Below, one piece after another: positions 52,628 to 55,067 of a DNA stretch of 64,000 nt. Source of the stretch: Streptomyces sp. MUM 203J (lineage in GTDB: Bacteria > Actinomycetota > Actinomycetes > Streptomycetales > Streptomycetaceae). The DNA is taken from assembly GCF_022414595.1 (NCBI RefSeq), contig NZ_JADWYO010000029.1, positions 1 to 64,000 of the forward strand, written 5' to 3'. The notes below the pieces were generated by a model, which saw nothing but the letters and a program-made list of their open reading frames with translations, had not been told where the DNA came from and searched no databases. Within the stretch, counting starts at the first letter, position 1, and each line of letters opens with the position of its first letter. The position numbers and the translations under genes are program-made.

Positions 52628-52676
52628 TTGATGCCACGGATCACCTCACCGGAAGGTGAGGATCACCCAACACCAG

Positions 52677-52749
52677 AGCCCCAAAACGGAATCGAACCGT
52701 TGACCTTCTCCTTACCATGGAGACGCTCTGCCGACTGAGCTATTGGGGC
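52677..52749 (-). tRNA. tRNA-Thr (anticodon GGT)
   Basis: A 73-nt cloverleaf: acceptor GCCCCAA/TTGGGGC, anticodon stem TCTCC/GGAGA with loop ATGGTAA, T arm AACGGTTCGATTCCGTT, discriminator U. No encoded CCA. A CCTCACC/GGTGAGG hairpin (52644-52661) lies between this tRNA and tRNA-Met. Confidence 0.93.
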
Positions 52750-52964
52750 GAGCGATGAAGACATTACACGGTCGGCGCCGGTTCACCCAAATCCGATTCC
52801 CGCCCGGCCCCGGCCCGATCCAGGTCCCGGCCCCGGCCCGGATCCCGGCCTCCCCCGGACGCCCGAGCCGGTACGACTATTGCGTTCCTCCTCGAAGCCC
52901 GGCCTGGCGGCGCCTAGGCTCGCCTCACGCTCCGCGATCTTCCCCCCTTCCCGCGAGGAGCCCC

Positions 52965-54197
52965 ATGTCCTCCGACAGCCAGCAGCCTCGGCGGCCCGAG
53001 GGCGCCACCACCGACACGACCGCGCTGCTGCTGTGCGGCGCCCGGCTCGTGGACGGCCGCACCGTCGACGTGAGACTCAAGGGCGCCCGTATCGAGGCGG
53101 TCGGAACGCCCGGCAGCCTCGACGCGCGGGGCACGCGGGTGGACCTGGCCGGCTACCTGCTGCTCCCCGCCCCCGCCGAGCCGCACGCCCACCCGGACAC
53201 GGCACTCAGCGCCGAGCCGCCGGGACCCGTGTCCTACGCGCCGGAGGACGTCCAGCGCCGCGCGACCGAGGCGGCGCTGCTCCAGCTCGGGCACGGGGCG
53301 ACGGCGCTGCGCGCCCATGTGCGGATCGGGGACGTGCAGGGGCTGGCGTCGCTGGAGGCGGTGCTCCAGGCGCGGCGGGCGCTGCGCGGGCTGACGGAGC
53401 TGACGGCGGTGGCGGTGCCGAGGCTGCTGACGGGGGTGGCGGGGGCGGACGGACTGGCGATGCTGCGGGACGCGGTGAAGATGGGCGCCGCGGTGGTGGG
53501 GGGCTGTCCGGACCTCGACCCGGATCCGGCGGGGTACGTGGAGGCGGTGCTGGAGGTGGCGGCCGAGCACGGGTGCCCGGTGGACCTGCACACGGACGGG
53601 GACGATCCGGCCCGGCTGGCGCGGCTGGCGGCGGTGGCGGGCGGGCAGCGGCAGGGGGTGGCGATCGGGCCGTGCGGGGCGCTGGGGCGGCTGCCCGGGG
53701 ACGCCCGGAGCCGGGTGGCGGACCAGTTGGCGGCGGCGGACGTGACGGTGGTGTGCCTGCCGCAGGGCGGGTGCGGGGGGACGGAGGTGCGGGCGGTGGC
53801 GCCGGCGCGCCTGCTGCGGGCGGCCGGGGTGCGGCTGGCGGCGGGGAGCGGGGCGCTGCGGGACGTGGCGAACCCGGTGGGGCGGGGCGACCCGCTGGAG
53901 TCGGCGTACCTGCTGGCCTCGCAGGCCGGGCTGGCACCGGAGGAGGCGTACGGGGCGGTGGGCTCGGCGGCGCGGGAGGCGATGGGGCTGCCGGCGGTGC
54001 GGGTGGAGGCGGGGTTCCCGGCGGAGCTGCTGGCGGTGCGGGGGGAGGGGCTGCCGGGCGTGCTGTCCCTCGCGTACAGCAGGATCGTGATCCACCGGGG
54101 ACGGGTGGTGGCGCGGACCAGCGCGGTGCGCGAGTACTGCGACTCGGCGGCGGCGCTCGAACTCCCCCGCCAGGCACGCCCGGACACGCGCCCGTGA
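52965..54197 (+). CDS. Amidohydrolase-like protein with a degenerate active site
   Basis: A 410-residue protein of the cytosine deaminase/amidohydrolase family, GAGGAG four bases before ATG. The first metal motif EPHAHPDT (H74, H76) and the third histidine (H209) are present. In the usual CodA-type order the catalytic HCDE becomes HTDG, the later SHTT becomes GPCG, and the metal Asp block becomes GSGA. Three of the functional positions are thus changed. It may bind rather than hydrolyse its ligand. Alignment by eye only. Confidence 0.7.
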   Translation: MSSDSQQPRRPEGATTDTTALLLCGARLVDGRTVDVRLKGARIEAVGTPGSLDARGTRVDLAGYLLLPAPAEPHAHPDTALSAEPPGPVSYAPEDVQRRATEAALLQLGHGATALRAHVRIGDVQGLASLEAVLQARRALRGLTELTAVAVPRLLTGVAGADGLAMLRDAVKMGAAVVGGCPDLDPDPAGYVEAVLEVAAEHGCPVDLHTDGDDPARLARLAAVAGGQRQGVAIGPCGALGRLPGDARSRVADQLAAADVTVVCLPQGGCGGTEVRAVAPARLLRAAGVRLAAGSGALRDVANPVGRGDPLESAYLLASQAGLAPEEAYGAVGSAAREAMGLPAVRVEAGFPAELLAVRGEGLPGVLSLAYSRIVIHRGRVVARTSAVREYCDSAAALELPRQARPDTRP

Positions 54198-54231: not shown

Positions 54232-54888
54232 ATGCGCATTGTCATCGCTGGAGGACACGGTCGGATCGCCCTGCGCCTGGAACGGCTGCTGGCGGCGGCC
54301 GGGCACGAGGTCGCGGGCGTCATCCGCAAGCCGGAGCAGGCGGACGACCTGCGGGAGGCGGGCGCGGAGCCGGTCGTGATGGACCTGGAGTCGGCGTCGG
54401 TGGAGATGGTGGCGGCGGTGCTCCAGGGCGCCGACGCCGCGGTGTTCGCGGCGGGCGCGGGCCCGGGCAGCGGTGCGGCCCGCAAGGTGACGGTGGACCG
54501 GGACGCGGCGGTCCTGCTCGCGGACGCGGCGGAGCGCGCGGGGGTGCGGCGCGTACTCGTCGTCTCCGCCATGCGCGCCGACCCGGCGCACCCGGGCGAC
54601 GAGGTGTTCGACGCTTACCTGCGCGCGAAGGGCGAGGCGGACGTGAACATCCGGGCCCGCCCGGGTCTCGACTGGACGGTCCTGCGCCCCGGTCTGCTCA
54701 CCGACGAACCGGGCACGGGCCTGGTCTGCCTCGAAGCCTCAACAGGCCGCGGCCCCGTCTCCCGTGACGACGTGGCAGCCACCCTGGCCGAGCTCGTCGA
54801 CACTCCGGCCACCGCCGGCCTGACCCTGGAGCTGATCGCCGGCTCGGTCCCGGTCCCGGTCGCGGTGAAGGCCGTAGCGGGCAACTGA
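54232..54888 (+). CDS. NAD(P)-binding oxidoreductase, NmrA-like
   Basis: A 218-residue protein with a Rossmann-type start (IVIAGGHGRIALRL), a dinucleotide-binding motif, then VLVVSAMRADP, and PGLDWTVLRPGLLTDEP as in atypical short-chain dehydrogenases. It lies 34 bases after the amidohydrolase gene and may be in one operon with it. Substrate unknown. Confidence 0.8.
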   Translation: MRIVIAGGHGRIALRLERLLAAAGHEVAGVIRKPEQADDLREAGAEPVVMDLESASVEMVAAVLQGADAAVFAAGAGPGSGAARKVTVDRDAAVLLADAAERAGVRRVLVVSAMRADPAHPGDEVFDAYLRAKGEADVNIRARPGLDWTVLRPGLLTDEPGTGLVCLEASTGRGPVSRDDVAATLAELVDTPATAGLTLELIAGSVPVPVAVKAVAGN

Positions 54889-54977: not shown

Positions 54978-54985
54978 CTTTGGCG

Positions 54986-55067
54986 TGGCGGCGCCAGGAT
55001 TCGAACCTGGGTAGGCTAAGCCGACGGATTTACAGTCCGCTCCCATTGGCCACTCGGGCACACCGCC
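54986..55067 (-). tRNA. tRNA-Tyr (anticodon GTA)
   Basis: An 82-nt class II tRNA with a long variable arm; acceptor GGCGGTG/CGCCGCC, anticodon loop CTGTAAA, T arm CCAGGTTCGAATCCTGG, discriminator A. No encoded CCA. Confidence 0.95.

Follow-up and report, generated by a model that had tools for sequence, protein, structure and literature searches.

A Streptomyces amidohydrolase homologue with fixed losses of catalytic residues is a probable pseudoenzyme under purifying selection

We propose that the gene at 52965..54197 (+) of the window, the 64,000-nucleotide stretch of Streptomyces DNA analysed here, encodes a pseudoenzyme of the CodA/AtzC branch of the amidohydrolase superfamily, which probably retains a residual three-histidine pocket, has a new C-terminal interaction surface and acts as a scaffold or ligand-responsive regulator. 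The sequence-only reading of this locus had described a deaminase-like protein without key catalytic residues, and a profile alignment and 176 orthologues agree with that description. Because the catalytic residues are lost yet selection on the gene is strong, an enzyme has probably been turned into a binding or regulatory protein, and we infer that hydrolase or deaminase activity is absent. The sequences show that the base and acid residues, the aspartate ligand and the substrate-recognition residues were lost together, with the three histidine ligands staying in place. A metal or small ligand may still occupy what remains of the pocket, and the conserved face at the C-terminus would bind a partner, through which the scaffolding or ligand-responsive role would be exercised, possibly with the adjacent SDR-type protein. 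If this is true, a gene that automatic annotation would call an amidohydrolase or hydrolase would have a conserved role in Streptomyces biology other than catalysis, and the family would offer a clean case of constraint moving within a fold once catalysis is abandoned, for which the intact sister genes serve as a reference.

The product is 410 residues long, starts at an ATG, and is identified by its open reading frame, a match to Pfam Amidohydro_3 and its orthologues. The motif GAGGAG can be read at 52955..52960 (+), 4 bases before the ATG, and GGAG, GAGG or AGGA lies within 20 nt upstream in all 28 of the 80 named loci whose start is at the expected base, so that both the intact frame of 410 codons and the strong ribosome-binding site remarked on earlier hold up. 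The Amidohydro_3 match, at 46.3 bits against a cut-off of 29.7, gives clear overall homology to amidohydrolases and places the protein in the superfamily. None of the NCBIfam amidohydrolase and cytosine deaminase models reaches its cut-off with this protein: PRK05985 (NF004636), the best, scores 169.8 of 408 bits, and cytosine deaminase models score 91.3 of 438, 81.4 of 403 and 50.4 of 483 bits. Among solved structures its relatives are AtzC-type enzymes and CodA, and by the sequence features tested the protein is neither a CodA, nor an AtzC, nor a member of PRK05985. An AlphaFold2 model computed from the window protein and 56 orthologues was of low confidence (mean pLDDT 44.5, pTM 0.30), and two scans of viral contigs found no relatives of the protein.

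The motif changes that had been listed by eye, HCDE to HTDG, SHTT to GPCG and the late Asp block to GSGA, read as claimed in the protein, whose motifs are PHAH (kept), LHTDG, IGPCG and AAGSGALRD. According to the AtzC report (PMC4577212), the zinc ligands of that enzyme are His60, His62, His217 and Asp303, its His249 (equivalent to CodA His246) is essential, the H249A variant being folded with undetectable activity, and its His219 pairs in space with CodA Glu217. Profile alignment to the AtzC chains places His74, His76 and His209 of our protein under the three metal-binding histidines, Pro236 under His249, the catalytic β6 histidine, and Gly296 under Asp303, the β8 aspartate and fourth metal ligand; the sequence-only reading had suggested a structure-based alignment as a check, and its outcome supports the losses at β6 and β8. 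The statement that the first HxH is kept (PHAH) is correct and can be refined, as the protein retains three of its four metal-binding residues and not this pair alone. The column of CodA Glu217 holds Gly212, where the CodA-type sister profile has Glu in 16/16 rows.

These features extend to the orthologues, for which we used 176 distinct sequences from a set of 192 ORFs that score above 300 bits, the window protein being one of them, taking the best-scoring loci first and dropping fragments below 300 bits. The HxH pair H74-A-H76 (53184..53192, +) is kept, with H74 in 172/176 orthologues (the others being Arg in two frameshifted rows, L079 and L088, and gaps in two) and H76 in 171/176. Within H209-T-D-G212 (53589..53600, +) the ligand histidine is found in 176/176 and the catalytic glutamate in none, residue 212 being Gly in 109, Ala in 65, Ser in 1 and Leu in 1; the HTDG motif, proposed for a conservation check, is thus invariant at its histidine and mostly Gly or Ala at its last position. 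Six orthologues (L010, L018, L020, L021, L024 and L067) read LHTHG here, an AtzC-like HxH on strand 5, with the other two catalytic residues still lost. Proline stands for the catalytic β6 histidine at P236-C237 (53670..53675, +) in 176/176, and Gly296 (53850..53852, +) stands for the β8 aspartate, a metal ligand and catalytic residue, in all 172 orthologues that have the column, the remaining four having a gap. At position 153, that of CodA Gln156, 167/176 have Arg. The base/acid set and one of the ligands are thus absent throughout, and three ligands stay. The ligand set of catalytic subtype III (HxH, β5 His and β8 Asp) is therefore incomplete, with three histidines and Gly296 for the Asp; its β6 His is Pro236 throughout; and the CodA motifs HCDE, SHTT and HDD are represented by HTDG, GPCG and GSGA. 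Loss of catalytic residues fixed across orthologues is a hallmark by which we recognize a pseudoenzyme, and the loss, as read from the alignments of the 176 distinct orthologues, is a fixed trait of the group rather than a local accident.

It is very unlikely, in view of these losses, that the protein is still an ordinary amidohydrolase in which Asp211 or nearby groups replace what is missing. Its homology to the superfamily is clear, and since Asp211 shares the column of AtzC His219 and residue 211 is His in 9/176 and Glu in 8/176 orthologues, an acid/base group may survive at this position. However, the β6 His and β8 Asp are missing in every orthologue with those columns, residues of the substrate site are lost too, and in AtzC the H249A change alone was enough to make activity undetectable (PMC4577212).

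Comparison with characterized enzymes places the closest relatives of the protein outside CodA. E. coli CodA belongs to the same fold family by sequence (E 3.1e-25 with the A1 profile) and shares the HxH and the β5 His, but its Glu217, His246 and Asp ligand are replaced here, its Gln156 position is Arg153, and its substrate loops are shortened. The best solved relatives are chains of AtzC/N-isopropylammelide isopropylaminohydrolase (6nbo, 4cqb and 2qt3; E 3.6e-30 for 6nbo and 2.2e-28 for AtzC), although the His249 and Asp303 of AtzC correspond to Pro and Gly here, and the equivalents of its Lys65 and Asn304 are also lost. The sister family is a group of actinobacterial amidohydrolases (A2; of the named models, NCBIfam PRK05985 comes closest to the window protein); it is 41% identical to the orthologues across 375 columns (HHalign E 4.4e-71), but its catalytic motifs are intact in 18/18 members and it is devoid of the RTSAVREY...LPRQ tail. 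The alignments compared, A1 (25 orthologue rows) and A2 (16 sister rows), were hand-picked from the matches. A broken CodA was considered and rejected, given that some Streptomyces have an intact CodA as a different gene and that the nearest kin form another amidohydrolase family; on this point the sequence-only reading needs correction.

Intact relatives provide controls for the losses. Glu, His and Asp are all kept in 18/18 of the homologues closest to the group (126-180 bits; 37-48% identity), among which L111, L124 and L125 come from Streptomyces itself, and 18/18 sister-family members keep the HLDK, HxDE, GHC/SHC and DN motifs; A2 spans 126-180 bits, and L108 and L119, left out from that range, are both also intact. 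Within Streptomyces, 13/101 genomes have second matches at E 1e-60 or better, and the extra copies examined, which exclude those of G004 and G010 and the third copy of G094, keep all three residues in 11/11 cases, ten being CodA-like with HCDE, SHTT and HDD. Between the 25 orthologues and the 16 sister proteins, 48 conserved residues are common to both, 45 are newly conserved in the orthologues, and 16 sister-conserved residues are lost in them, including those at positions K79, H183, E212, H236, N269, D296 and N297. Residue change within the superfamily is not unique to this group, because L122, L256 and L258 are also non-canonical, with HADF for HxDE, Asn (SSNN/ATNN) at the metal-binding Asp and the β6 His kept; this branch is possibly a second group of amidohydrolases with an altered metal site.

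The gene has remained under purifying selection after the loss. Its dN/dS, a Nei-Gojobori value without correction for the high GC content, as are all those given here, is 0.168 for the 38 disjoint pairs drawn from named loci, below four of the five neighbours tested (SDR 0.249 over 37 pairs, MaoC1 0.201 over 35, MaoC2 0.146 over 35, MurB 0.219 over 13 and YajQ 0.278 over 16); other samplings gave a median of 0.155 (86 disjoint pairs) and a value of 0.229 (all 10,231 pairs, dS 0.1-0.7). It is therefore as constrained as its housekeeping neighbours. The absence of catalytic residues, the few genomes that lack the gene and the few orthologues that look frameshifted or split (e.g. L079 and L088, whether real or through assembly error) might have suggested a decaying pseudogene, but this selection test with neighbour controls refutes decay, as does the presence of the gene in every Streptomycetaceae genome of our order-wide draw, and we give that explanation practically no weight.

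Constraint has shifted away from the pocket, towards the C-terminal sandwich and tail. Mean pairwise identity over the whole protein is 0.69 among the 25 orthologues versus 0.50 among the 16 sister proteins, yet the corresponding figures are 0.68 and 0.67 for strand 5, 0.65 and 0.71 for strand 6, and 0.54 and 0.72 for the strand 7 loop, as against 0.81 and 0.48 for the C-terminal sandwich and 0.96 and 0.31 for tail residues 385-391. Relative to the rest of the protein, the pocket columns, a set of 52 chosen by us after the alignments had been seen, lose conservation to a degree matched by 1/365 circular shifts, and residues 346-391 gain it to a degree matched by 4/365. These residues, which comprise the sandwich and the RTSAVREY tail (54000..54137, +), are the most constrained segment, with a dN/dS of 0.097 there and of 0.166-0.273 in the other six segments with a value. 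The LPRQ motif (residues 400-403; 54162..54173, +) is also well kept, with P401 in 173, R402 in 171 and Q403 in 171 of the 176 orthologues. The orthologues have a shorter TNLYLQG loop and a shorter stretch after HLDK. Gly/Ser/Ala-rich inserts of variable length follow the HxH in L089, L084, L093 and L145, at the site of a lost sister loop of about 20 residues.

The main rival to a non-enzymatic role is new chemistry at the three-histidine site, in which the histidines would bind a metal and new residues such as Asp183/Asp185, Asp211 and Cys237 would support another reaction. This accords with the retention of the three histidines (H209 in 176/176, H74 in 172/176 and H76 in 171/176 orthologues), and with the newly conserved aspartates beside the barrel (D183 in 24/25 and D185 in 25/25 orthologues; the sister family has H183 in 15/16 and nothing fixed at 185). 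An enzyme, however, should keep its pocket most, and here the ends of strands 5-8 are no better kept than those of the sister family, unlike the rest of the protein, and the strongest new constraint lies in the tail; we therefore regard a neofunctionalised enzyme as rather unlikely. The pseudoenzyme part of the sequence-only reading stands, on the strength of the lineage-wide losses, the losses in the substrate site, the intact controls and the purifying selection, and the binding or regulatory role that it suggested may have been gained, which fits the shift of constraint to the C-terminal region.

CRMP proteins are amidohydrolase-superfamily pseudoenzymes of another branch that are kept for assembly or regulation and have a known partner. 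Inactive dihydroorotase subunits and cryptic dihydroorotase-like domains are likewise superfamily pseudoenzymes kept for assembly or regulation, and inactive dihydroorotases are needed to assemble some aspartate transcarbamylases, according to PMC4581275; unlike our protein, they belong to a different superfamily branch and their partner is known. In a literature search, no amidohydrolase pseudoenzyme of the CodA/AtzC branch and none from Streptomyces came to light. The dihydroorotase precedent (PMC4581275) makes it conceivable that our protein is the partner subunit of an active paralogue, and the C-terminal constraint would fit an interface, but we consider this improbable: no full-length paralogue of the branch was found in the host genome, where two partial matches have E values of 5e-7 and 2e-6, which makes such a partnership unlikely in the host, and only the 13/101 genus genomes mentioned above have a second match. 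A partner might, however, come from a different family.

A scaffold or ligand-responsive regulator, the reading we favor, might take the more specific form of a core Streptomyces ligand or metal sensor, a tentative possibility in which the histidine cluster, rid of the catalytic Asp, His and Glu, would bind a metal or metabolite without turnover and the sandwich with the RTSAVREY...LPRQ tail would signal to a partner, with the SDR as the first candidate. This SDR-type NAD(P)-binding protein of 218 aa (54232..54888, +; Pfam NAD_binding_10, 144 bits) begins 34 bp past the stop codon, and may be an active enzyme because it carries a YxxxK motif (YLRAK, identified by eye). It lies downstream on the same strand in 79/80 named loci, the contig of the remaining one (L226) ending 26 bases past the match, and in 12 of 13 wider loci, the exception being G418, from the one other genus of the family sampled, whose SDR is on another contig; L235 and L236 have a gap of up to about 2 kb between the two genes. 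The gene keeps one place in the chromosome across Streptomyces species, and in so stable a region the proximity of two genes says little about function. MaoC genes lie divergently on the other side in 13/13 wide loci, and the divergent tRNA-Thr (ggt) upstream of the gene (52676..52749, -) is also found upstream in 12/12 wide loci scanned. By names assigned from reading the translations (secE, nusG, rplK, murB, MaoC, YajQ), the upstream part of the window carries secE/nusG/rplK, adenosine deaminase, murB and MaoC-like genes; tRNA-Met and tRNA-Thr immediately precede the gene, which is followed by the SDR, YajQ-like and alkyltransferase-like genes. Further along is a tRNA-Tyr (54985-55067, -), in S. 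coelicolor the integration site of the SLP1 element, next to which lies SCO4631 (ScoMcrA), a subject of published work; the window has no insert at this tRNA. By gene order, our guess at the S. coelicolor gene numbers is SCO4632-4634, for which the literature search returned no paper.

In the order-wide draw, 182/182 Streptomycetaceae genomes have an orthologue, including G418, which belongs to another genus. Two other families in that draw (15 genomes) gave only four matches, all weak (E about 1e-20 to 1e-24), and 11 genomes were without a match. The nearest profile copies in three of the four genomes (L259-L261) and the second copy in the fourth, G309 (L267), are AtzC-like with His and Asp intact; G309 also carries the HADF/N-type copy L258. 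The orthologues (20 rows, window included) form one clade with an SH-aLRT of 100 and a stem of 1.21 changes per column in a 50-row tree, obtained by a quick search with SH-aLRT only, including several rows of odd composition and omitting G418. We infer a single origin of the pseudoenzyme, no later than the base of Streptomycetaceae. A homologue in G299/G301, from another family of the order, lies about 5-6 kb from an SDR relative and looked like an ancestral linkage, but this AtzC-type protein retains its His and Asp, and we treat it as unrelated for that reason.

More broadly, 79/394 genomes of a class-wide draw have a match at E 1e-20, with identities of at most 45% outside the genus. Within the genus draw, 289/295 genomes have some match at E 1e-10, a few being paralogues or fragments only; true orthologues are somewhat fewer, because in at least G261 and G276 the match is to other members of the family alone. 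Five of the six genomes without a match are also without the SDR at E 1e-20, and the sixth, G139, has it. One of the five, G180, is nearly closed (2 contigs), so that this genome without either the pseudoenzyme or the SDR is a natural test case for dispensability. Among the named relatives, 79/80 are Streptomyces records and one is titled Microtetraspora glauca. The latter (L155, JOFO01000009.1) has the gene at 81% identity in a Streptomyces-like gene order, and the record is probably misnamed.
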